From contig CAJXUQ010000012.1 in NCBI GenBank assembly GCA_913061145.1, positions 47,532 through 111,531 on the forward strand: DNA of 64,000 bases. The letters are read 5' to 3'. Of this stretch, positions 36,146 through 50,381 are shown piece by piece. Below the pieces are notes generated by a model. That model had not been told where the DNA came from, ran no database searches, and saw only the letters and a program-made list of their open reading frames with translations. Made by a program: the position numbers and the translations under genes. This DNA is from an uncultured Haliea sp. (GTDB lineage Bacteria; Pseudomonadota; Gammaproteobacteria; Pseudomonadales; Halieaceae). Position 1 is the first letter of the stretch; every line of letters starts with the position of its first letter.

Positions 36146-37366
36146 ATGAAAGGACTGTATCTTACGGCGCTCCTGATGGCAGGTGCGCTGGCAGCGAGCT
36201 CGGCTCTCGCAGACGCTCTACCGGCGACCGGCAATGCCGATGCCGCCGCTACCCGTGCGCTGGAGCAGCGCCGCGCACTGCAGGCGGCCATCACCGATCT
36301 GGAAAGCGAGTACGGCGCCTACAGCCCAGTGCTGCCCGAGCGCCTGCTGAGCCTCGGGCTCGCCCTGCAAGCCGAGGGGCGGCATGCGGAAGCAGCTGCC
36401 GTGTTCAAACGCGGCACCCACCTGGCCCGGGTCAGCACCGGCCTGTACAGCACGGACCAGCTGCCTCTGCTGGAGTCGGAAATCATCAGCCTGCAGGCGC
36501 TGGGAGACTACCGCGCTGTCGATGAGCGGCAGCGCTATCTCGACCGCGTGCAAAGCAAGGCTGAGCTGACGCCGGAACAGCGCGTGCGCGGCCTCCTGCA
36601 ACAGGGCGACTGGCAGCGGCAGGCCTTTCTGCTCAGTCTCGACGAAGAGCCCGGCCTGCGCCTGCTGCAGATGTGGGAGTACTATCGGCTCGCCCTGAGC
36701 GAGGTGCTCGAGCACCAGGGCGAAGCATCCCGCGACCTGCTGCGACCGCTGTACGGCATGCTGCAGGCACAGTACCTTATCGCCGGCTACCGCTGGGCAG
36801 AGGCCGCTGACGACTTTGGCAACGGGTTCAGCGGTAGCAGCACACGCCCGCTTGCCAACAGTTATCTGCGCGACAATTTCAGCAAGGGTCAGGCGGTACT
36901 CAAGGCCATTTACGACCTGGAGCGGCTGCACAGCGATACCGATCCCTCAGCGCCTGCCCGCGCACGCACCCTGATGGGCGACTGGCTGCTGTTCCATGGC
37001 GATCGGGAGGGCGCGATGGCTGAGTATGCTGAGGTTTTCGCGGAACTTGCCGACGATACCGCTGCCCAAGCCTTGCGCGCTGAGCTGTTTGGCGAACCCG
37101 TACCCTTGCCGGCACTGGAAGGAATCGATGTGCATGGGCCTCTCGCTGTTGAAGGCGATGGGGATATACTGCTAGGGCTTGCCGTGGCGGCTGACGGCAA
37201 GGTATCCAACCTTGAGCGGCTGGATGATTCCGGCGAAGCGAACGGACTGGCCAATCGGCTCATGCGGGCGCTGCGCAAAACGCCGTTCCGTCCACGATTT
37301 GATCTCGCTTCCGGCACCCCGGTAGCAACCGACAACCTGGTTATGGCCTATGACAGTAAACGCTGA
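36146..37366 (+). CDS. exported TPR-like protein with TonB C-terminal-like domain (first gene of cluster)
   Basis: Start MKGLYLTALLMAGALAASSALA signal peptide; TPR-like repeats; C-terminus ADGKVSNLERLDDSGEANGLANRLMRALRKTPFRPRF resembles TonB_C. Confidence 0.8.
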   Translation: MKGLYLTALLMAGALAASSALADALPATGNADAAATRALEQRRALQAAITDLESEYGAYSPVLPERLLSLGLALQAEGRHAEAAAVFKRGTHLARVSTGLYSTDQLPLLESEIISLQALGDYRAVDERQRYLDRVQSKAELTPEQRVRGLLQQGDWQRQAFLLSLDEEPGLRLLQMWEYYRLALSEVLEHQGEASRDLLRPLYGMLQAQYLIAGYRWAEAADDFGNGFSGSSTRPLANSYLRDNFSKGQAVLKAIYDLERLHSDTDPSAPARARTLMGDWLLFHGDREGAMAEYAEVFAELADDTAAQALRAELFGEPVPLPALEGIDVHGPLAVEGDGDILLGLAVAADGKVSNLERLDDSGEANGLANRLMRALRKTPFRPRFDLASGTPVATDNLVMAYDSKR

Positions 37367-38387
37367 GACATCGATTGCACTGACCCTGTTGCGCAGCGCA
37401 GGCTGCGCAGCGCTGTGCCTGGTGCTGGCGGGCTGCCCCAGCGCCAGCAATCCCACACAGCCTTCCTCGACACCCAGCACACCGCCATCCTCCTCCAGTA
37501 GCGGCAGCCAAAGCGCTCCCGCGACTGGTAGCAGCTCGTCGATGCCCTCTACCTCCAACGACGAAGCCGCCAGCACTGACGGCGCCGGCGCGCCGGAAGC
37601 GGGTACCCAGGGCACTACGCTGGAAGATGGCACAGGGCGCGCATCATCCCCCCCGGGTTCTGAGGCGGATGGCAGCGAAACAGGGGGCGCCCCAGAGGCG
37701 GGTAACGGGCAGGTCGCAGGAGAGCCAGGTTTCGAGACAGGTACCGGCGGTGATGTGTTGCCTGACATGCGCGATACGCCGACCCTTGATCCCGGCACTC
37801 TGGCCGCGCTTGAGGCGGCCATGGAAGCGGCCGCCGCGAGCGGCAACGGGGCGGGCAACGAGCGTGGCGAGGACAGCGGCTCGACGCCGGGTAGTACTTC
37901 CGGACAGTGGCCCGCTGACACTGCGGGCGCGGGCGACACCAGCACGACCGCCGGACCGCTCACGCCGGCCGAGCAGGTGGCCATCCTGGATGCCCGGCTG
38001 GAGGCGGGCACCGGGGAGTTCGACACCATGATTCTCGAGGAGCAGGCCCGCCAGCGCAGTGCGCGTCGTGCCAGCAGCAACGACGCGAGCACGGACGCCG
38101 CCAGCGAGGACGCCGCCAGCGGCGCAGCGCCCGGGGGCCTTGAAGGCCCTTACGGCGAGGAGATCACAGTTGCCGGCGCGGGCGGCGGCCAGGGCAGCGT
38201 AAACACCCCGGGACGCTCAGGGCCGGTGAATCCGGCACGCTATCCGCCGCCCGACGACATACCCAACGGCAATGACGACGACGTGGTTGCTCGGCAGCTG
38301 CGCGAGGCCGCCATGCGCGAGCCCGACCCCGCCGTCCGCGAGAAGCTCTGGGAAGAATACCGAAAATACAAGGGAATCACTCCATGA
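37350..38387 (+). CDS. low-complexity Ser/Gly/Thr-rich lipoprotein
   Basis: Lipobox LVLAGCPS; roughly 200 residues of SSGS/TSGA-type low complexity; overlaps neighbours by 17 and 4 nt. Confidence 0.75.
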   Translation: MTVNAETSIALTLLRSAGCAALCLVLAGCPSASNPTQPSSTPSTPPSSSSSGSQSAPATGSSSSMPSTSNDEAASTDGAGAPEAGTQGTTLEDGTGRASSPPGSEADGSETGGAPEAGNGQVAGEPGFETGTGGDVLPDMRDTPTLDPGTLAALEAAMEAAAASGNGAGNERGEDSGSTPGSTSGQWPADTAGAGDTSTTAGPLTPAEQVAILDARLEAGTGEFDTMILEEQARQRSARRASSNDASTDAASEDAASGAAPGGLEGPYGEEITVAGAGGGQGSVNTPGRSGPVNPARYPPPDDIPNGNDDDVVARQLREAAMREPDPAVREKLWEEYRKYKGITP

Positions 38388-39577
38388 CTACCGCCCGGCT
38401 GGCGCTTGTCTTGCTGCTTTTGGTCAGCCTGACCGCCTGCGTCAACCAGACCGTTAAAACCGCCTCCGTGCCCTCCCTGGAGCGGCCGGCACAGGCGGCG
38501 CCTGAAAGCGCGCTGCTGGACGTGGGTGTACTGGTCTTCGACCCGGGCCTCGACGACTACGATGAAGACCAGCAGGTCTACCCCGAAGTGCGCAAGGCCG
38601 AAGCCCGATTCATGCCGCGTCTGCTGGCGGAGGCCATGCAGAACAGCGGGGCCTGGGGCGCTGTGCGCGTCGTCCCCTCCGACCGACAGGCCGTTGATCT
38701 GCTGGTGCGCGGGCGCATCGTGGCATCGGATGGGGAAACCCTGGAACTGCATATCACCGCAAACGATGCCCGCGGCGCAGAGTGGCTGGACAAGCGCTAC
38801 AAGGCAAACGCAAGCAAGTATGCCTATGCGCCCTCCACCCGCAACAGCTACGACCCCTTCCAGGCGATCTATCACATGATCGCCAACGACCTGATGCGGT
38901 ATCAGGAGTCACTGACCCTGGCCCAGCGCGAGGACATCCGCCTGGTCACTGAACTGCAGTTTGCCCGCAGCTTCTCGCCCGAGGCGTTCGATGGCTACCT
39001 CAAGGAAAACCGCAAGGGTGTGATGGAGGTGAGACGCCTGCCGGCCGAGGGCGACCCGATGCTGGAGCGCATTCGCAGCATTCGCGAGCGCGACCAGCTG
39101 TTTGTCGACACACTGCAGGAACACTACGGTCACTTCAGTGGCGAAATGCAGGTGCCCTACCAGGAATGGCGCAAGATGAGTTATGAAGAGGCCATCGCGC
39201 TGCAGGAGCTGCAGGCCGAGAGCCGTCGCAACCTGATTGCCGGTGGCGCGGCGATCCTGGCCGGCATCTACGCCGCGGGCAGCAGCGATCGCTCCAGCCG
39301 TGCGGCAGGCAATGTGGCCATCATCGGTGGCGGTTACCTGCTCAAAAGCGGCCTCGAGAAACGCGCCGAAGCGCAGATTCACGTGGCCGCACTGGAAGAA
39401 CTCGGCATGTCACTGGAGGCGGAAATCACCCCGCAGGTCATCGAACTGGAGGACCGCACGGTGATGCTCAGCGGCAATGTTGAGGAACAATACGCCCAGT
39501 GGCGCGAGCTGCTGGCCGATATCTACCAGGCTGAGGTCGGCCTGCTGGAAGCCACGCCATCGACCAGCAACCCCTGA
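38384..39577 (+). CDS. cluster lipoprotein, unknown function
   Basis: Signal + lipobox SLTACVNQ; DVGVLVFDPGLDDYDEDQQVYPEVRKAEARFMPRLL; ATGA overlap with upstream gene. Confidence 0.8.
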   Translation: MTTARLALVLLLLVSLTACVNQTVKTASVPSLERPAQAAPESALLDVGVLVFDPGLDDYDEDQQVYPEVRKAEARFMPRLLAEAMQNSGAWGAVRVVPSDRQAVDLLVRGRIVASDGETLELHITANDARGAEWLDKRYKANASKYAYAPSTRNSYDPFQAIYHMIANDLMRYQESLTLAQREDIRLVTELQFARSFSPEAFDGYLKENRKGVMEVRRLPAEGDPMLERIRSIRERDQLFVDTLQEHYGHFSGEMQVPYQEWRKMSYEEAIALQELQAESRRNLIAGGAAILAGIYAAGSSDRSSRAAGNVAIIGGGYLLKSGLEKRAEAQIHVAALEELGMSLEAEITPQVIELEDRTVMLSGNVEEQYAQWRELLADIYQAEVGLLEATPSTSNP

Positions 39578-39610: not shown

Positions 39611-41140
39611 ATGACCAGACCCAGCGATCCCGTCAAACCGATACCCTTCAGCGTCGCCGAGCCCACGCCCGGTATGGCTGCTGCCCCTGCGAGTACCAGC
39701 GGCCAGTCACGCTGGCTGGTCCCCGCGCTGCTGTTGCTGGTGATACTGGCGCTGGCCGTGGTGTTCTGGCTGCCGGGCCAGCTGGGCGATGACAAGTCAG
39801 CGGCCCGGCTGGCTGTCGATGGCAAGCCGCCAGCTGCCTCCGGCGCACCGCCCGCGGCAGCCGCGCCGCCCGCGCCGGAGCCGGCGGCCAGCCCCTGGTC
39901 TGATGCCCGGCAGGCCCGCCTGAGGCAGGAAGCGCAGGAAGTACTGGCACAGCTGGTGGAACTGCAGTTCACACTGGAGGAGCGGGGAGCGGCGTCCTGG
40001 GCGGGCCCCGCGCTGGACAACGCCAAAGCGGCCGCCACACGCGGCGATACGCACTATCAGGCCCGCGAGTTTTCAGACGCGACCGAGCAGTACCGGGACA
40101 GTCTGGCACAGCTTCAGGCGCTGGAAACACGTATTCCGGATATTCTGCAAGGCGCACTGACGGCGGCGGAGGATGCGCTGGAGCGGGGCGATGCAGATGC
40201 GCTGCAACCCGCACTGGAGACGGCGGAGCTGCTTGCACCGGCCGATTCTGCGCTGGAGGCGCTGCGCCAGAGGGCTGCCGTGATGACCGCACTGCAGGAC
40301 AAGCTCGACACAGCGCTGGCGCTGGAGCGCGACGGCGACCTGGCGGGCGCGGAGGCCACACTGCGCGCTGCCACACAACTCGATCCGGCAAGCCGCCGCG
40401 CGGCGAACGCACTCGAGCGCGTGCAGGCCGCGCACGCGGAGCAGCGCTACCAGAGCGCGATGAGTGAGGGCTATGCTGCGCTTGATGACGGTCGTTTTGA
40501 CGCCGCGGCGAGCGCCTTCGCCAAGGCCCGTTCGCTGCAACCTGACAGCCCGGAAACCGAAGCCGCATTGACGGAGCTGCGCGCCACACAGACTGCCGAC
40601 CGTCTCGGCAAGCTGCAACGCAAGGCGCAGGACCTCGAAGCCCAAGAGGCCTGGGGCGACGCCGTCGCCGGTTATGAGGAAGCCCTCGCGGTGGATCCGA
40701 CACTGGTCTTCGCCCAGGAGGGCCTGGCACGTGCGCAACCCCGGGCGCGGCTGGACAGCCAGCTGCGTGAGGCATTGGACGCACCGGAGCGACTGTCCGA
40801 TCCGGCGGTTGCCAGAAGCCTGGAACAGGTGCTGGCACAGGCCCGTACGGTGACACCTCAAGGGACGCTGCTCGGCACCCAGATTGAACAACTGACGCAG
40901 CTTTTGGAGCGGGCCAACACCCCGGTTACCGTCACATTGCGCTCGGATCAGCTCACCGCGGTGCTGGTACAGCGGGTGGCGCGGCTGGGGCAGTTCGAGG
41001 AACACAGCCTGGCGCTGCGCCCGGGCACCTACACGGCGGTCGGCACGCGCGATGGCTACCGTGATGTCCGCAAGACGTTCACGGTGTCTCCCGACAGTCC
41101 ACCGGAACCCATTGTTATCGCCTGCACGGACCCTGTTTGA
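39611..41140 (+). CDS. single-TM protein with TPR repeats and PEGA-like C-terminus
   Basis: TM RWLVPALLLLVILALAVVFWLPG; TPR-like repeats; C-terminal RPGTYTAVGTRDGYRDVRKTFTV. Confidence 0.8.
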   Translation: MTRPSDPVKPIPFSVAEPTPGMAAAPASTSGQSRWLVPALLLLVILALAVVFWLPGQLGDDKSAARLAVDGKPPAASGAPPAAAAPPAPEPAASPWSDARQARLRQEAQEVLAQLVELQFTLEERGAASWAGPALDNAKAAATRGDTHYQAREFSDATEQYRDSLAQLQALETRIPDILQGALTAAEDALERGDADALQPALETAELLAPADSALEALRQRAAVMTALQDKLDTALALERDGDLAGAEATLRAATQLDPASRRAANALERVQAAHAEQRYQSAMSEGYAALDDGRFDAAASAFAKARSLQPDSPETEAALTELRATQTADRLGKLQRKAQDLEAQEAWGDAVAGYEEALAVDPTLVFAQEGLARAQPRARLDSQLREALDAPERLSDPAVARSLEQVLAQARTVTPQGTLLGTQIEQLTQLLERANTPVTVTLRSDQLTAVLVQRVARLGQFEEHSLALRPGTYTAVGTRDGYRDVRKTFTVSPDSPPEPIVIACTDPV

Positions 41141-43210
41141 ATGAGCACTGACCGCGACACGACGCAGGCCATCACACCGAGCAGCTTCGAGCCTCTGAAT
41201 CAGGCGCAGCAGCCCGAAACGAAGGGTGGATGGGGCTGGCGGCGCTGGCTGCTACCGGCAGTCATCCTGCTGTTCGCGCTGGTCATGGCGTTCCTGTTTA
41301 CCGCACGTTCAGTGGAAATCAGCGTAGAGTCCAGCGCCCCCGCCGACATCGACCTGGGCGGCTTCCACCTGCCGCTGGGGGGCCGCTACCTGATGCTGCC
41401 CGGTGTCTATGCACTGCAAGTCAGCGCACCCGGTTACGTTCCGCTCGAGACCCGTATCACCGTCGGCGATGCCGCCAGCCAACGCTGGCCCTTTTCCCTG
41501 CAGCCGCGCCCGGGGCGGGTCACTCTGCTGGCAGAGCCGGAGGGGGCAACCGTAACCATTGACGGCGAACAGGCCGGCAGTACACCCCTGGCTGCACTGG
41601 AGCTGGCTGCCGGCACACACACGCTGCAACTGCGCCACCCACGCTACCTGCCACTGGACGAGACGCTGCAGGTCGCCGGCCGCGACCGCGAGGAGACCTT
41701 CGAGTACCGCCTGTCACCGGCCTGGGCAGTGGCGTCGATCAACAGCGAGCCGGCCGGCGCCGACGTGCTCCTCGACGGCGAGCCGGTGGCGACGACCCCC
41801 GCCTCGGTCGAAGTCATGCAGGGCGAGCGGCAACTGCAGCTGCGGCTGCCCGGCTATGCCCCCTGGGAACAAACGCTGGTGGCAAAGGCGGGCGCCGACC
41901 TCGAGCTGGGCACCGTCACCCTGCAACCCGCTGCCGGACTGCTGGAACTTACCAGCACGCCCAGCGGTGCCAATGTCACCCTGGATGGCGATTTCCAGGG
42001 CCAGACGCCGCTCACCTTGAACCTTGTTCCGGACAAACCGCAACGGCTGATGCTGACCCGGCCGGGATACCGACGCCACAGTGAAACCGTCCAGCTGGCC
42101 GCCGGCGCCACGGGGCGCAAGGCCATCACGCTGGCCGCCCAGCTGGGCGAAATCGATCTGCGGGTGCGTCCGCCCGAGGCGGAAGTACGCGTCAACGGTC
42201 GCCTGGTCGGGCGTGGCAACCAGTCCCTGTCACTGCCCACTGTTGAACACCGCGTGGAAATCAGTCTGCCGGGGCATCGCAGCGAGTCCCGGCGTATTAC
42301 CCCGCGGCAGGGGCTGGAGCAGCGCTTTGAAGTTGCCCTGCAGACCGAGCAGGAAGCCCGGGTAGCACAGCTGCAGCCAGAGGTCACTTCAGCGCTGGGG
42401 CAAACGCTGCGCCTGTTTATCCCCGGCGAACATGGCCCGGACAGCTTTACCCTGGGTGCCTCGCGCCGCGAGCCCGGGCGCCGCGCCAACGAGGTTCTGC
42501 GCCCGGTCACGCTGCGCCGTATGTTCTACCTGCAGACCACAGAGGTGACCAACGCCCAGTTCAGGCAGTTCCTGGCGAGCCACAACTCGGGCCAGGTCGA
42601 AGGCAACAGCCTGAACCGCGAACACCAGCCCGTCGCTCAGGTGAGCTGGCAGCAGGCCGCTCAGTTCTGCAACTGGCTGAGCCAACGCGAAGGCCTGCCG
42701 CCGTTCTACACGCAGAACCAGGGCATTGTCACCGGCTTCAATCCAGCGGCAACGGGTTACCGCCTGCCCACGGAGGCCGAGTGGGCCTGGGTCGCGCGCG
42801 TCAAAGGGGAAACACGGCTCACCTTCCCCTGGGGCGACACGTTCCCACCCACTGCAGTCCTCGAAAACTATGCCGACAGCAGCTCGGCCTATGTGACCGG
42901 CAGGACCGTGAACGGGTACAACGACGGTCAGGTGGTGAGCGCCACTGTTGCCAGCTTTCCCGCGAATCACCACGGCCTGCACGACCTGGGCGGCAACGTC
43001 GCCGAGTGGGTGCACGATGTCTACCAGATTCCCGCCGCAAACGCGCCGGCGGAAACGGATCCTCTGGGCCCGCAGAGTGGTGACAACTACGTCATACGCG
43101 GCGCCAGCTGGGCCATGAGCAGGATGTCGGAACTGCGGCTCCCGTTTCGCGATTATGGGCAAGCGGGGCGCGATGACGTAGGATTCCGGATCGCGCGCTA
43201 TGCGGAGTAG
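41141..43210 (+). CDS. PEGA-repeat protein with C-terminal FGE-sulfatase (SUMF1-like) domain
   Basis: N-terminal TM; about five PEGA repeats (EPEGATVTIDGEQAGSTPL, EPAGADVLLDGEPVATTP, TPSGANVTLDGDFQGQTPL...); EVTNAQFRQFL...YRLPTEAEWAWVAR...GLHDLGGNVAEWVHD...GFRIAR. Confidence 0.93.
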   Translation: MSTDRDTTQAITPSSFEPLNQAQQPETKGGWGWRRWLLPAVILLFALVMAFLFTARSVEISVESSAPADIDLGGFHLPLGGRYLMLPGVYALQVSAPGYVPLETRITVGDAASQRWPFSLQPRPGRVTLLAEPEGATVTIDGEQAGSTPLAALELAAGTHTLQLRHPRYLPLDETLQVAGRDREETFEYRLSPAWAVASINSEPAGADVLLDGEPVATTPASVEVMQGERQLQLRLPGYAPWEQTLVAKAGADLELGTVTLQPAAGLLELTSTPSGANVTLDGDFQGQTPLTLNLVPDKPQRLMLTRPGYRRHSETVQLAAGATGRKAITLAAQLGEIDLRVRPPEAEVRVNGRLVGRGNQSLSLPTVEHRVEISLPGHRSESRRITPRQGLEQRFEVALQTEQEARVAQLQPEVTSALGQTLRLFIPGEHGPDSFTLGASRREPGRRANEVLRPVTLRRMFYLQTTEVTNAQFRQFLASHNSGQVEGNSLNREHQPVAQVSWQQAAQFCNWLSQREGLPPFYTQNQGIVTGFNPAATGYRLPTEAEWAWVARVKGETRLTFPWGDTFPPTAVLENYADSSSAYVTGRTVNGYNDGQVVSATVASFPANHHGLHDLGGNVAEWVHDVYQIPAANAPAETDPLGPQSGDNYVIRGASWAMSRMSELRLPFRDYGQAGRDDVGFRIARYAE

Positions 43211-43217
43211 GCCGACC

Positions 43218-43472
43218 ATGCTGAGCGGAACACGCACTACACTGCTGACCTGTCTGCTGCTGGTTGGCTGGGCCACCGCGCACCCGGCCGCGGGCCAGGA
43301 CACAGCGGACGACGCCGGTGCGCAAGCCAGCGAAGCGACGACACCGCAGCCCCCTGAACCCGCAGCGACAGGCAGCGCAGGCACAACACCCCCCCCGGGA
43401 TCGCCGCTGGAGTACGAAGCCTCCGAGCAGATCTCGGAAGACCTTTCCGTCTCATTCCCCGTGGATATCTAG
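43218..43472 (+). CDS. small exported protein of the cluster
   Basis: Signal-like MLSGTRTTLLTCLLLVGWATAHPAAGQ, low-complexity middle, C-terminus YEASEQISEDLSVSFPVDI; ORF track begins at 43200. Confidence 0.6.
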   Translation: MLSGTRTTLLTCLLLVGWATAHPAAGQDTADDAGAQASEATTPQPPEPAATGSAGTTPPPGSPLEYEASEQISEDLSVSFPVDI

Positions 43473-43481
43473 GACACCACC

Positions 43482-44279
43482 ATGAAAATCAAGTTATCCC
43501 CGGAATTCACCTTCCAGCTCTTCGCACTGCTGATTGCCATCATCGTTGTGCACGGCCTGTATGTCGGCGTGATCCGACCCAGCGCGGACGCACAGCTGCA
43601 GGAGCAGATGGCGCTGCAGGCCGCCGGTGAGGACATCGTGCCAGAGCGCAGCCTGGCGGTTGTCATACGGGACTTCGAGCAGGAAGCCTGCTTCATTCTG
43701 CTGTTGTGGGCCCTGGCCATCATGGCCTACAAGGGCCGCAGTACCCTGCGCGAACAGGCGCTGCTGGAACGTGCACTGCTCGATATCCCCGATGGCACCA
43801 CCCTGCTGCCGGAGGATGCGCGCGAGTACAGCCGTTCACTGGAGGCGCTTCCCGCCGCGGAGCAGGACTATCTGCTGCCGCGCACGCTGTTAAGCGCACT
43901 GCAGCGTTTCGCCACCACGGGCAGCATCCAGGCGGTGTCCAACACCATCAAGGAGGAGTGCGAAGTGGAGTCCGATCGGCTCGACTCGGAACTGTCGATG
44001 GTGCGCTACATTGCCTGGGCAATTCCCTCCATCGGCTTCATCGGGACGGTGCGCGGCATCGGCGATGCACTCGCGCAGGCCTACAAGGCCGTCGAGGGCG
44101 ATATTTCCGGTGTCACGGTGAGCCTCGGCGTCGCCTTCAACAGCACGTTCGTCGCGCTGGTGCTGAGCATCATCATCATGTTCTGCCTGCACCAGCTGCA
44201 ACAGTCGCAGGAGAAACTGGTGCTGGACTGCCAGCGCTACGCCGACAAGCGACTGCTGCGCCATCTGGTGGCTCACTGA
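43482..44279 (+). CDS. MotA/TolQ/ExbB-family proton channel-like protein
   Basis: YIAWAIPSIGFIGTVRGIGDALAQA and GVTVSLGVAFNSTFVALVLSIIIMF match the two conserved TolQ/ExbB TM motifs. Confidence 0.9.
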   Translation: MKIKLSPEFTFQLFALLIAIIVVHGLYVGVIRPSADAQLQEQMALQAAGEDIVPERSLAVVIRDFEQEACFILLLWALAIMAYKGRSTLREQALLERALLDIPDGTTLLPEDAREYSRSLEALPAAEQDYLLPRTLLSALQRFATTGSIQAVSNTIKEECEVESDRLDSELSMVRYIAWAIPSIGFIGTVRGIGDALAQAYKAVEGDISGVTVSLGVAFNSTFVALVLSIIIMFCLHQLQQSQEKLVLDCQRYADKRLLRHLVAH

Positions 44280-44280
44280 T

Positions 44281-45537
44281 ATGCCGGTCGCCTGGCTCGA
44301 CATTCACGACAGTAACCTGCAGATCTGGCACGGTGACCTGCACCTGAGCAGCCCCGGCTATGCCCTGCTGGACGCCGGGCAGTACCGGTTCGGGCAGGAT
44401 GCGCGCGCGGCAGCACGGCTGCGGCCGCGTGACATTTCCACGCGCTACTGGTGGCAACTCAATACCGACGCACTGCAGCCCGCGCTGGGACCGGCCAGAC
44501 ACACCGCCGACCTGGTCCACGCCCATCTGCAGGCGCTGCACCGGGAGGCCGGTGCACCGGATGAGCTGTTGCTGGCCGCGCCAGGCAGCATGCGCAAGGA
44601 ACAGGTCGCGCTGCTTTTGGGGATTATCCAGCAGTGCCCGTTTGCGGCGGTGGGCCTGGTCAACCGCAGTGTCGCCCTGGCCAGTCTTCACCCTCCGGAG
44701 ACCACCCTATTCCACCTGGAGATCCAGCTGCATCAGGCGCTGCTCAGCGAAGTACGTCGCGACGGGACGGAGGTCCTCCTGCACAAGGTAACGCCACTGC
44801 CCGGCTGCGGGCTGCTGGCGCTGCAGGAGCGGGTGGTCGAGGCAGCGGCCAGCGCGTTCATTCGCCAGACCCGATTCGATCCCCGCCGCCGTGCGGAAAC
44901 CGAGCAGCAGCTTTACAATGCCCTGCCCGGCACCCTGCGCACCCTGCGCGACGCCGCCGAGACCAGCCTGAGCGTGAACGGCTACCACGCGCGACTGACG
45001 CGCCATGACCTGCAGGCCGCCAGCCGCACCCTGCTCGACGCGGTCACCGGCAACCTGCCCCGCGAACACCCACCGACACTGATGCTGGATCCTGTGGCTG
45101 CCCTCCTGCCAGAGCTGCGGTCACGCCTGGCGGCGATCGTGTTGCAGGACGGCGATATGCAGCGTGCACTGGCCCTGCACGAGCCGCGCCTGCTGCAGCG
45201 CGCCGAAGCCCTGGTCTTTGTCGAGCGCCTGCCCGCCGCGGCAGGCGCAGCGGCCAACACTGCGCCAGAGCCGGCGGCGCCGAAGCCGCTGCCCCGCGCA
45301 ACGCACCTGCTGCGTCATGCCGAGGCCCGCGCACTGCGGGTTGATGGCACCTCACTGGGCGCAGGCTGGTCCCTGGTGGCGGATGCCGCTGGTGGCTGGC
45401 GGCTGCATGCAGGGCCGGATGCGGGGGAATTGACGGTCAACAACGGGCCGTGTCACGACGGGGACTGCGTTGCGAGCGGGGATCGCCTACAACTGGCGGA
45501 CGGCACCGAGGCCCTGCTGATCCGGGTCAGCGAGTAG
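44281..45537 (+). CDS. putative degenerate Hsp70/actin-like (ASKHA) protein with FHA-like C-terminus
   Basis: DnaK-like layout (LLLAAPGSMRKEQVALLLGIIQQCPFAAVGLVNRSVALAS vs VPASF..EQR..AGLKVLRIINEPTAAAL) but no DLGGGT loop; C-terminal LRVDGTSLGAGWSLV...SGDRLQLADG. Confidence 0.6.
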   Translation: MPVAWLDIHDSNLQIWHGDLHLSSPGYALLDAGQYRFGQDARAAARLRPRDISTRYWWQLNTDALQPALGPARHTADLVHAHLQALHREAGAPDELLLAAPGSMRKEQVALLLGIIQQCPFAAVGLVNRSVALASLHPPETTLFHLEIQLHQALLSEVRRDGTEVLLHKVTPLPGCGLLALQERVVEAAASAFIRQTRFDPRRRAETEQQLYNALPGTLRTLRDAAETSLSVNGYHARLTRHDLQAASRTLLDAVTGNLPREHPPTLMLDPVAALLPELRSRLAAIVLQDGDMQRALALHEPRLLQRAEALVFVERLPAAAGAAANTAPEPAAPKPLPRATHLLRHAEARALRVDGTSLGAGWSLVADAAGGWRLHAGPDAGELTVNNGPCHDGDCVASGDRLQLADGTEALLIRVSE

Positions 45538-45549
45538 GCGAGGCTCAGC

Positions 45550-46638
45550 ATGGCAAGGCGCAAGCGCGGCTTTACCACCTTCAACCTGAGCTTTCTGGAC
45601 ATCATGTCCTGCGGCTTCGGCGCAGTCGTGCTGGTTTTTCTGATCATTGACCACTCCATAGAAGTGCAATCGCGCGAGCTGAACCGCGACCTGCTCTCGG
45701 AAGTCAACCTGCTGGAGGAGGATATCGCCGACGGCGAAGCCGGGCTGGTGAAACTGCGCAACGCCCTGAGTGACATCGACCAGCAGATGGTGGAGGCCCA
45801 GGGCAGGGCCACACGGGTGACAGAGGAGATCGACGAGTATGAAGCGCTGATCGCGGGCCTGCGCGATGCCACCAGCAGCAGCCCCGACCTGGAGCGGCTC
45901 AAATCCCAGATTCAGGCACTGGAGGCCGAAGTGCAGCGCCTGCGGGAATCCACCGAGGACACCAGCGGCAACAGCGCCCGCACGTTCACCGGCGACGGCA
46001 ACCGCCAGTACCTGACCGGGCTCAATCTGGGCGGGCGGCATATCGTGATCCTGCTGGATGTTTCATCCAGCATGCTGGCTGATCGCCTGGTCAATATTAT
46101 CCGCCTGCGCAATATGGGTGCCGAAATACAACGTGGAGCGGAGAAGTGGAGCCGCGCACTGAGCACCGTTGACTGGCTGACGGCCCAGCTGCCGGTCGGC
46201 AGCAGCTACCAGATCATTACCTTCAATACGGAGGCCGGCTTTGCGCTGCCGGAAACCGCCGGCAAGTGGCTGGAGGTTGCCAATCAGCCGCAGCTGGAAT
46301 CCGCCACACGCGCCCTGCGCAGCATCCTGCCCAGCGGCGGCACCAGCCTGGAAAATGCCTTCATCGCCCTGGGGCGGTTGAGCCCGGCAGCCGATAACAT
46401 ATTCCTGATTACGGACGGCCTGCCGACTCAGGGCACCACGGCGCCGCGTGGCAGCACCGTCAGCGGCAAACAGCGCCTGGACCTCTATCAGCAGGCGCTG
46501 CGGCGGCTGCCACGAAACGTGCCCGTGAATATCATTCTTGCGCCGATGGAGGGGGACCCGATGGCGGCTTCGGCGTTCTGGCAACTCGCCCAGGCGACCC
46601 GTGGCAGCTTCATGACGCCCTCGCGGGACTGGCCCTAG
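45550..46638 (+). CDS. TM-coiled-coil-vWA protein 1
   Basis: LSFLDIMSCGFGAVVLVFLII TM; coiled coil; MIDAS VILLDVSSSM, GGTSLENA, LITDGLP. Confidence 0.88.
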   Translation: MARRKRGFTTFNLSFLDIMSCGFGAVVLVFLIIDHSIEVQSRELNRDLLSEVNLLEEDIADGEAGLVKLRNALSDIDQQMVEAQGRATRVTEEIDEYEALIAGLRDATSSSPDLERLKSQIQALEAEVQRLRESTEDTSGNSARTFTGDGNRQYLTGLNLGGRHIVILLDVSSSMLADRLVNIIRLRNMGAEIQRGAEKWSRALSTVDWLTAQLPVGSSYQIITFNTEAGFALPETAGKWLEVANQPQLESATRALRSILPSGGTSLENAFIALGRLSPAADNIFLITDGLPTQGTTAPRGSTVSGKQRLDLYQQALRRLPRNVPVNIILAPMEGDPMAASAFWQLAQATRGSFMTPSRDWP

Positions 46639-46646
46639 GAGTCGAC

Positions 46647-47642
46647 ATGCGCAAGCGACGCACCACCGAAGAATTCTCGCTGTCGTTTCTCGACGTCATC
46701 TGCTGTGGCTTTGGCGCCGTGATCCTGCTGTTGATGATTACCAAAACGGTGCAGCCGCAAATCATCGAGGCGTCCACCGTCAACCTGCAGGGCAAGGTTG
46801 CCGAGCTGCAGGAGCAAGTGTTCGAGATACGGGGCGAAACGCGCATCCTCAACCGCGACCTGAACGCGCGCCAGGAACAGCTGTCGGCCTACCGCGAGCG
46901 CATCGCCATTCTCCAGGCACAACTGGCCAGCACGCGCTCCCGCCACGACAGCCTGCAGGTCAACGCCAGCGCCAGTGATGTGATCGCCGAGCAGCTGGCC
47001 ATTGCACGCCAGTCGCTCACCGAGGAACAGAAGCGCCTGCAGGCCCAGCAGTCGCAGGCAAAAAACAATTATATTGGCGGCATACCGGTCGACAGCGAGT
47101 ACATCATCTTTGTTATCGACACGTCCGGCTCCATGTTCTATTACGCCTGGGAGCGAGTGCTGAGAGAGGTCGAGTCCGTGCTGAGTATCTACCCGGAGGT
47201 GAAGGGTATCCAGGTGATGAACGATATGGGTGACTACATGTTCAGCCGCTATCGCGGCCAGTGGATACCGGATACCGCCGCGCGGCGCACGGCGATCATC
47301 CAGAATCTGCGCAACTGGAACGTGTTCAGCAACTCGAGCCCGGTGGAGGGCATCACCCAGGCCATTCGCAGCTTTTACGATGGGAAGAAACGCATTAGCA
47401 TCTACGTGTTCGGCGACGACTTTACCGGCAACTCGATCAGCCAGGTGCTTACCACCGTTGACCGGCTCAACCGCGACAGCGGTGACCAGCGCCTGATACG
47501 CATCCATGCCGTGGGTTTTCCCGTACTCTATTCACAGGCGCCCGCCCAGCAGAACACCGCACACCGCTTCGCGGCGCTGATGAGAGAGATGACGTATCGC
47601 AATGGAGGCACCTTTGTCGGGCTCAATGACTACCGCCCCTGA
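46647..47642 (+). CDS. TM-coiled-coil-vWA protein 2
   Basis: LSFLDVICCGFGAVILLLMI TM paralogous to previous gene; coiled coil; MIDAS FVIDTSGSM; YVFGDDFTG. Confidence 0.88.
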   Translation: MRKRRTTEEFSLSFLDVICCGFGAVILLLMITKTVQPQIIEASTVNLQGKVAELQEQVFEIRGETRILNRDLNARQEQLSAYRERIAILQAQLASTRSRHDSLQVNASASDVIAEQLAIARQSLTEEQKRLQAQQSQAKNNYIGGIPVDSEYIIFVIDTSGSMFYYAWERVLREVESVLSIYPEVKGIQVMNDMGDYMFSRYRGQWIPDTAARRTAIIQNLRNWNVFSNSSPVEGITQAIRSFYDGKKRISIYVFGDDFTGNSISQVLTTVDRLNRDSGDQRLIRIHAVGFPVLYSQAPAQQNTAHRFAALMREMTYRNGGTFVGLNDYRP

Positions 47643-48282
47643 GCGCGGCCTCTGGCTCGCGGCGCTGGTGCTCGCCTGCCTGCTCGCGGGCTGCGGCACC
47701 AAACAGGTGGTTGTCGAGAGCGAGTTCCCCGACCCGGTGATGAACCCGCTGCCGTTGACGCTGGGCATCTGGTACGACGACGACTTCGCCAATCACGAGT
47801 TCTTCGACGAGGCCAGCGGACGGGCAGAATCCAGCTGGCTGGTGAATACCGGCCAGGCACAGGTGGAACTGTGGCACACCCTGCTCAGGGGCATGTTCCG
47901 CCAGGTGGTGTTCATGAACGGCAAACCGGGGCCGGGGCAGATGAATCCGCTGGTGGATGCCGTCCTGCTGCCCTCGGTCGATGAATTACAGTACGCCATC
48001 CCGGCGCACACCAACGTCAAGGTCTACGAGATCTGGATGCGCTACCGTTTCCAACTGGTCACTATGGGCGGAGACCCCATTGCGGAATGGACCATGCCGG
48101 CGTATGGCAAAACCCCCACAGCGTTCATGCAGAGCGATGAAGGTGCCGTGCGGCTGGCCGCCATCGTCGCCCTGCGCGATGCAGGTGCGCATTTCGCCAC
48201 CACCTTTACCCGTGTGCCGCAGGTTGAGGCCTGGCTCAACAGCCTGCCCCGTGCTGGCGGCCAGGCCCAGGTGCTACCGTGA
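47629..48282 (+). CDS. cluster lipoprotein
   Basis: LACLLAGCGTKQ lipobox; starts inside the upstream vWA gene (14-nt overlap from 47629; ORF track gives 47602). Confidence 0.78.
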   Translation, partial: TTAPERGLWLAALVLACLLAGCGTKQVVVESEFPDPVMNPLPLTLGIWYDDDFANHEFFDEASGRAESSWLVNTGQAQVELWHTLLRGMFRQVVFMNGKPGPGQMNPLVDAVLLPSVDELQYAIPAHTNVKVYEIWMRYRFQLVTMGGDPIAEWTMPAYGKTPTAFMQSDEGAVRLAAIVALRDAGAHFATTFTRVPQVEAWLNSLPRAGGQAQVLP

Positions 48283-48941
48283 GCCTGCGTCTCCTGCTGA
48301 TGGGTGCCGTGCTCCTGCCCTGGTTGACCGGCTGCGTGAACGCCACCGTGGACCAGATGGTATTCAATTCACCGACGGCCGGTATCGGTGACGCTTCGGT
48401 GGTGATTCTCGGTCGCCGCCACGCCAGCGACTACGAGACTGAACCGGGCTTTATCAGCTGTGTCGGCGGGCATATCGAAGCACGCGACCCCTCGATTCGC
48501 GTCATCGATGAACTGGAGTTTCTCAATGCCCTCTATCCATGGTTCGAACCGCGCACCGCGCCCCTGCGCCCCTCGGATCTGGAAAAACTCTTCGAGCACC
48601 GCGATGTGGCCGAAAAGTTTGCGGCCCTGCAGACGCGGTACATGATCTGGATTGACGGCAGCACGGTACGGGGCGACTCAGCGGGTTCCATGACCTGCGG
48701 TATCGGTCCGGGCGGCGCTGGCTGCTTCGGCTTCGGCACCTGGTCTGACGACGCCAGCTACGAAGCCACCATCTGGGATATTAGCCAGCGCGCCGAGGTC
48801 GGCCGCATCAGCGCCACGGCCAGCGGCCAGTCCTATATGCCCGCCGTGGTACTGCCGATTCCCATTATCGCTCCGGTTCAGGGCACTGCCTGCGACAGCG
48901 TGGGCGACCAGCTGCTGGAGTTCCTCTCGCACACACCCTAG
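48279..48941 (+). CDS. cluster lipoprotein
   Basis: LLPWLTGCVNATVDQM lipobox; 4-nt overlap with previous gene. Confidence 0.78.
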   Translation: MSLRLLLMGAVLLPWLTGCVNATVDQMVFNSPTAGIGDASVVILGRRHASDYETEPGFISCVGGHIEARDPSIRVIDELEFLNALYPWFEPRTAPLRPSDLEKLFEHRDVAEKFAALQTRYMIWIDGSTVRGDSAGSMTCGIGPGGAGCFGFGTWSDDASYEATIWDISQRAEVGRISATASGQSYMPAVVLPIPIIAPVQGTACDSVGDQLLEFLSHTP

Positions 48942-48950
48942 GAGCCGCCC

Positions 48951-50381
48951 ATGATGACAGCACTCATACGTCACGCCGCGCTGGGCCTTGCACTGCTCGC
49001 CGCGCTCACCGGCTGCGCCGGCAACCCCGCAACCGGTGGTGCCAGCGTGGTGGTCATGAGTGAATCCAAGGAAGCGAAGATCGGGCAGGAGATGTACGCC
49101 GAGATCCAGAAAGAGGGTGCAATCTACGATGACCGGGAGCTGCAGGACTACGTGAACCGTGTCGGTCAGCGCCTGGTCGCCAACAGCGACCGGCCAGACC
49201 TGCCCTTCACCTTCACCGTCATCGACAGCCCGGACCTGAATGCCTTCGCAACACCGGGCGGCTATGTCTATATCCACCGCGGACTGCTCGCCTACCTCGA
49301 CTCCGAAGCCGAACTGGCCGGCGTGCTCGGCCATGAAATCGCCCACGTTACGGCGCGGCACGCCGCCCGCCAGCGCGCCGGATCACTCACCACACAGGTG
49401 CTGGCAGTCACCGCCGGTGTGCTCACCGGCAGCCGGGACATCATGGACTCCGCGGGCATGTACGGCACCGAGCTGGTTCGTGGCTACGGCCGGGAGCACG
49501 AACTGGAGGCGGACGGTCTGGGGGCGCGTTATATGTACCTGAGCGGCTATGAGCCCGACGCACTGTTGAACGTGATTGGCGTGCTCAAGGACCAGGAGCA
49601 GTATCAGCGCGTGCGCGCCAAGGCGGGCGGCAAGCCCGCCGGCACCTACCACGGGCTTTACGCCACACACCCGCGCAACGACCAGCGCCTGCAAACCGTG
49701 ATCCGCGCCGCCAGCGAGTTGGACACCGGGAAGGTGCTAGAGGATCCCAGCATACCCGGCGAGTTTCAGCGGCGCACGGATGGGCTACCCTGGGGCCCGC
49801 GCATAAAACGTGAAGACAACCGCTATTACCACAACAAGCTGGCGTTCAGTTTTGCCTACCCGCCGGGCTGGCAAGTCAGCAGTGGCAGCCGCGCGATCGT
49901 CGCCAGCGCCGCAGATGGCAGCGCCAGCCTCACCATTACCCTGCAGAAACCGGACCCGCAACAAACCCCGCAACAGGCCCTGGAGGCGGCGGCCAGCGGC
50001 GGCATCAGCCATGGCCTGGACCTTGAACAGGCGGGTCTGCAGGGGTACAGCGCCCTCGCCAGTGGCGGCGGAGAGACACGGCGCCTGGCGGTGATCAATC
50101 ACAACTGGCAATTTCTGTTTGAGGGCAAGGCGGAAAAATTCAAAGCCGCAGATGACGACCTGCTGGCAATGATCCAGAGCTTCCGCCCACTGCACCCGCA
50201 GGAACGCAATGCCGGTGAACAGCGCTATGTGCGTTATATCCAGGTGCCACGGGGCGCCACCATGGCCAGCCTCGCCGCCAGCATCCGGCTACCGGATGCG
50301 GAAGCACAGCTGCGGCTGCTGAATGGGCTGTATCCCAGTGGTGAGCCGCGCACCGGGGACTGGATCAAGATTATCCAGTAG
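48951..50381 (+). CDS. M48-family metalloprotease lipoprotein
   Basis: LLAALTGCAGN lipobox; LGHEIAHVTARHAARQ (HExxH) and EHELEADGLGARYMY; LysM-like C-terminal tail. Confidence 0.92.
   Translation: MMTALIRHAALGLALLAALTGCAGNPATGGASVVVMSESKEAKIGQEMYAEIQKEGAIYDDRELQDYVNRVGQRLVANSDRPDLPFTFTVIDSPDLNAFATPGGYVYIHRGLLAYLDSEAELAGVLGHEIAHVTARHAARQRAGSLTTQVLAVTAGVLTGSRDIMDSAGMYGTELVRGYGREHELEADGLGARYMYLSGYEPDALLNVIGVLKDQEQYQRVRAKAGGKPAGTYHGLYATHPRNDQRLQTVIRAASELDTGKVLEDPSIPGEFQRRTDGLPWGPRIKREDNRYYHNKLAFSFAYPPGWQVSSGSRAIVASAADGSASLTITLQKPDPQQTPQQALEAAASGGISHGLDLEQAGLQGYSALASGGGETRRLAVINHNWQFLFEGKAEKFKAADDDLLAMIQSFRPLHPQERNAGEQRYVRYIQVPRGATMASLAASIRLPDAEAQLRLLNGLYPSGEPRTGDWIKIIQ

Follow-up and report, generated by a model that had tools for sequence, protein, structure and literature searches.

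Introduction

The closest described counterparts of the system discussed here are the TPH-vWA/TolQ-like pairs, reported in 2025 in Mol Biol Evol (PMC12204202) as a second family of transmembrane (TM)-anchored von Willebrand factor A (vWA) proteins, which co-occur very tightly with tolQ homologues and are accompanied by neither tolR nor exbD. Their genes are mostly heterologous pairs, found in Proteobacteria and Verrucomicrobia, and the proteins carry a conserved Asp in the TM helix; AlphaFold 3 puts this helix inside the pentamer with a threonine ring around it, and rotation within the pentamer was predicted (PMC12204202). This paper discusses a locus of this kind in a stretch of 64,000 nucleotides, called the window hereafter, from an uncultured Haliea sp. 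(assembly GCA_913061145.1, contig CAJXUQ010000012.1, positions 47,532 to 111,531), in which the genes of two vWA proteins, vWA1 (45550–46638) and vWA2 (46647–47642), lie downstream of a gene for a MotA/TolQ/ExbB-like ring subunit (43482–44279). All genes described below are on the forward strand, and coordinates are those of the window. The source is a Haliea-like Halieaceae genome, vWA2 being 100% identical to its counterpart in Halieaceae bacterium UBA5044 and 96% to that in Haliea salexigens.

At this locus a tolQ-like gene neighbours a heterologous vWA pair whose TM helices have a conserved Asp and no SHLS motif, and the contig of the window is devoid of tolR, exbD and motB. Its placement with the TPH-vWA pairs is supported, as all testable described features are present, the comparison having been made with the published description, whose seed is from Idiomarina. 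The idea of a ring/vWA motor is thus not new but already published as a prediction (PMC12204202), and the literature surveyed gives no phenotype or structure for it. What is added here is a quantified invariance of the Asp and a quantified co-occurrence, including a ring gene retained when unlinked, together with the full conserved cluster and a small protein with a conserved tail.

The vWA Proteins and Their Transmembrane Aspartate

The open reading frame (ORF) of vWA1 (362 aa) begins with MARRKRGFTTFNLSFLDIMSCGFGAVVLVFLII / MARRKRGFTTFNLSFLDIMSCGFGAVVL and that of vWA2 (331 aa) with MRKRRTTEEFSLSFLDVICCGFGAVILLLMITK / MRKRRTTEEFSLSFLDVICCGFGAVIL. In both proteins basic residues precede an N-in TM helix with a single Asp, namely Asp17 of vWA1 (codon 45598–45600) and Asp16 of vWA2 (codon 46692–46694), and the helix is followed by a coiled coil and a vWA domain with a metal ion-dependent adhesion site (MIDAS). 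This architecture had been read from the letters in the original prediction; its positions were verified, and its domains agree with Pfam for vWA1, with AlphaFold and Foldseek for vWA2 and with the conservation of the MIDAS in both. vWA1 exceeds the Pfam cut-off (VWA_2, 6e-7) and vWA2 is under it by sequence (VWA, 0.006); the AlphaFold model of vWA2 (predicted local distance difference test, pLDDT, 78) consists of a TM helix at residues 14–33, a long helix at 44–122 and a vWA fold, and vWA domains dominate its top Foldseek matches. The MIDAS residues Asp158, Ser160, Ser162 and Asp257 of vWA2 are conserved in 38/38 sequences, and in vWA1 Ser172, Ser174 and Asp289 are each found in 39/39 and Asp170 in 38/39.

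The homologues compared come from 80 loci in Halieaceae and from genomes of the class and the wider phylum. The TM Asp is invariant in all of them, that is, in 118/118 vWA1 and 117/117 vWA2 homologues with overall identities down to about 27–33%, and it is never substituted, even by Glu, so the point on which the partnership reading had been exposed to refutation beforehand, conservation of this residue, came out in its favour. When 40 N-termini from the two paralogues are put into one alignment, the Asp is the sole invariant column, neighbouring Cys and Gly residues of the helix motif being replaced by Ser or Ala in some lineages. Its conservation is more than chance would give. Of the cluster's proteins with one TM span (TPR, PEGA, vWA1 and vWA2), only the vWA pair has a conserved acidic residue in the helix. 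In the conservation of this Asp the two resemble the single-span partners of 5:2-type motors, whose acidic helix residue is essential.

As a separate observation, the Cys of the helix motif has been lost jointly from vWA1 and vWA2 in one lineage (L179–L185; CG to SG and SA). This single event would be consistent with packing of the vWA1 helix against the vWA2 helix.

The Ring Subunit and Its Partnership

The product of 43482–44279 (265 aa) belongs to the MotA/TolQ/ExbB family (PF01618, E 3.6e-15). The top Foldseek matches of its AlphaFold model (pLDDT 84) are all TolQ, ExbB or MotA, the nearest being TolQ and ExbB structures with a TM-score of about 0.6, at probability 1.0 and marginal E-values. 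Two threonines, Thr189 and Thr222, are invariant in 108/108 ring sequences and line up, in a hidden Markov model alignment that is a weak match overall, with threonines of TolQ which we take to correspond to Thr148 and Thr181 of ExbB. These ExbB residues point into the channel (PMC5903867). The protein thus has the family membership, fold and conserved pore threonines of a ring subunit of a 5:2-type ion-driven motor.

Across the 369 class genomes the ring orthologue and the vWA matches coincide exactly, both being found in one set of 31 genomes from about 17 families; three of the 31 (G087, G098 and G290) have vWA1 only, at a contig end, and vWA-profile matches in G090 (E 1.7e-5) and G125 (2.6e-4), which cover mostly coiled coil, were excluded from the count. 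Moreover, one of these genomes (G213) retains the ring gene even though it is found on a different contig, surrounded by unrelated genes. In the source genome there are six MotA/ExbB proteins, five of which adjoin canonical partners: one on contig C21 has an ExbD/TolR neighbour, a pair on C28 lies next to two ExbD and a pair on C14 next to two MotB. The sixth, the 43482–44279 product, adjoins the vWA pair, and since the other five have their ExbD/TolR or MotB neighbours, this ring is the one without a conventional partner. The earlier remark that no ExbD, MotB or TolR ORF lies nearby was borne out on a larger scale, ExbD/TolR (PF02472) and MotB (PF13677) being absent from the window's contig and all matches of the genome being confined to C21, C28 and C14. 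A profile of the N-terminal helix found nothing convincing beyond these pairs in 399 phylum genomes; of four weak extra matches the two that were inspected, in G605 (a major facilitator superfamily transporter) and G676 (a Tad-type protein), proved unrelated, the other two being weaker still.

A Putative Ion-Driven Motor and the Alternatives

We consider it likely that the ring and a two-helix axle contributed by vWA1 and vWA2 make up an ion-driven envelope motor. The partnership is supported because the genes co-occur in 31/31 genomes, no other partner of the ring is found, the pore threonines are conserved and the ring protein has the expected fold. Published AlphaFold 3 models of gene sets of this kind, in which the pair of Asps is reported within the threonine ring (PMC12204202), are independent support. 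In the inner membrane the 43482–44279 product would assemble into a pentameric ring of the TolQ/ExbB type, and the axle within it would be made jointly by one N-terminal helix from vWA1 and one from vWA2, giving a 5:1:1 complex. The one Asp on each helix would bind the ion against the threonine belt (Thr189 and Thr222), ion flow would make the ring and the axle turn against each other and the coiled coils would transmit the motion to the periplasmic vWA domains. These would grip envelope ligands via their MIDAS metal sites in place of peptidoglycan anchoring, and the lipoproteins, the TPR protein and the PEGA-SUMF1 protein may be the envelope parts on which the motor acts; force would thereby be exerted on periplasmic or outer-membrane ligands. 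If this is true, it is an ion-driven envelope motor whose axle consists of two different proteins and whose adhesive metal-binding heads replace peptidoglycan anchors.

Several points weigh against such a motor. The vWA proteins have no PF02472 or MotB match in Pfam, either as full proteins or as 40 N-termini, and hhalign of the vWA against the ExbD/TolR N-termini gave a score of 12.1, which is within the range of controls and was reached by 11/100 block shuffles; furthermore, the best local match leaves the Asps unaligned. No experiment on such ring/vWA complexes was found in the literature surveyed, and the conserved Asp could act in assembly instead of ion transfer. With no profile match and no helix homology detected, membership of the vWA proteins in the ExbD/TolR family (PF02472) is not supported, and a vWA fold stands where members of the ExbD, TolR and MotB families have an ExbD-fold or OmpA-like periplasmic domain. 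The proposal that they are ExbD/MotB-type stator partners is supported as to function, through the Asp, the co-occurrence, the threonines and the ring fold, and is not supported as to family, for which nothing is detectable. Because the profiles detect no helix homology, we say that each works like, rather than is, an ExbD or MotB: the vWA proteins are well supported as counterparts of ExbD/TolR/MotB in function, without being recognisable as members of these families. The likeness to ExbD/TolR may reflect either convergence or very distant homology.

Well-characterised axles are homodimers, and each vWA protein has the full Asp motif, which would also suit two separate motors with different periplasmic heads, the ring pairing with a vWA1 dimer in one and a vWA2 dimer in the other. 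The same question is still open for AglR with AglQ/AglS (review PMC9389320). Against this, vWA1 and vWA2 are in tandem wherever both fit on the contig, and each positive genome has a single ring gene, across about 17 families, so we regard homodimeric motors as rather unlikely. In another explanation the Asp would serve in assembly or anchoring, and the complex would be a static scaffold. Ion flow is a prediction, and the helix face of small, Cys and Gly residues suggests tight helix packing; however, an Asp that is never replaced even by Glu and two pore threonines present in every ring sequence are what ion transfer would lead one to expect, and a scaffold is accordingly held to be improbable. 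A force-transducing contact of the vWA proteins with the outer side of the ring, in the manner of TolA and TonB, is very improbable, since the SHLS/His motif of such transducers is absent from the vWA helices in the alignment of 40 N-termini, no other axle candidate exists in the cluster or nearby, and the side-binding family is adjoined by tolR-like genes.

The Conserved Gene Cluster

The ring and vWA genes belong to an eight-gene envelope cluster that is conserved, the small protein, the ring and the vWA pair included. It starts with lipA (37350–38387), coding for a lipoprotein-like protein, and the lipoprotein gene lipB (38384–39577), both with a lipobox visible in the translation, followed by the genes of an inner-membrane-anchored TPR protein (39611–41140; TPR matches, TM 36–54) and of an inner-membrane-anchored protein with PEGA repeats and an FGE-sulfatase/SUMF1-like domain (41141–43210; Pfam PEGA 1e-54, FGE-sulfatase 5e-42). 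Then come the small secreted protein (43200–43472), the ring, an optional accessory cytoplasmic protein (44281–45537), vWA1 and vWA2, an order which is maintained across Halieaceae and distant families, with the ring gene lying 3′ of vWA2 in G091 and G314. Downstream lie two optional lipoprotein genes, lp1 (47602–48282) and lp2 (48279–48941), and an optional gene of an M48-type peptidase (48951–50381), named by inspection of its HExxH motif; these three and the 44281–45537 gene are often absent from distant clusters, the latter being missing from several lineages.

By eye only, the 44281–45537 product has an actin/Hsp70-like (ASKHA) N-terminal part and an FHA-like C-terminus; no Pfam family matches it, and a PDB profile match to the Hsp70-like protein Ssz1 has no significance (E 1). 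In NCBIfam the SUMF1-like domain of 41141–43210 scores best against GldK/PorK, a family of type IX secretion, with a score far under the cut-off of that family. Searches of plasmid and viral collections gave nothing relevant.

The Small Secreted Protein

The small protein has a signal peptide, a variable linker and a C-terminal tail ending ...SFPVDI-COOH, and in almost all loci its gene comes immediately before that of the ring. Its body is variable, the mature part being only about 15–25 residues in a distant phylum group (L175–L185) and a few class members. In 102 loci with 60 distinct 16-residue tails, Pro-4 and Asp-2 are present in 102/102, Phe-5 in 98/102 and a last residue Ile in 101/102; the tail scan demanded a P-x-D-I/M ending, so the conservation of Pro-4, Asp-2 and the last residue is partly by construction. 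As an independent check, such an ORF fills the interval between the PEGA and ring genes in nearly all loci that contain this interval, and almost none occurs elsewhere. This companion appears to be undescribed, in so far as the vWA section of PMC12204202 makes no mention of it.

Tentatively, the FPxDI tail may be a dedicated ligand gripped by the vWA MIDAS, the ion-driven axle pulling on or releasing an integrin-like contact. The suggestion is hinted at by joint changes in one lineage only: in loci L164 and L253 of G213, the genome with the relocated ring gene, the vWA1 MIDAS is damaged (Asp170Ala, Thr265Ala) and the tail is IPSDM. No aligned locus except L164 has such damage, and all tails but that of L164 end in Ile. 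The parts list of the cluster and the conserved tail peptide offer concrete proteins and residues for tests in culturable Haliea relatives.

Comparison with Known Systems

Zorya ZorAB has a MotA-like ring, but the weak ZorA match obtained here is confined to the generic channel region. When five proteins of the cluster were scanned with defence-system models, only weak ZorA and coiled-coil matches resulted and none to ZorB, ZorC, ZorD or ZorE, and identity with Zorya was rejected. GldLM with GldJ/GldK, of type IX secretion and gliding, likewise combines an envelope motor with SUMF1-fold proteins, although the PEGA protein matches the GldK and GldJ models at the SUMF1 domain only, far under the family cut-offs. 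The Myxococcus gliding motor AglR-AglQ/AglS has one ring gene and two distinct Asp-bearing partners, as here; the literature presents AglQ and AglS as homologous to MotB, which the vWA proteins detectably are not, and whether AglR works with a heteromer is open too (PMC9389320). ExbBD and TolQR share the family of the ring subunit, the nearest fold and a single-span partner whose helix carries an Asp close to its beginning, whereas here there are two distinct partners, in which a coiled coil bears a vWA head where ExbD and TolR have their periplasmic domain, and helix homology is undetectable. In the description of the TPH-vWA pairs the small FPxDI protein does not appear in the vWA section and PEGA is not mentioned in the main text (PMC12204202), and the Haliea locus shares with these pairs a TolQ-like gene that lacks tolR and exbD, a heterologous vWA pair, an Asp in the pore helix and a threonine ring.
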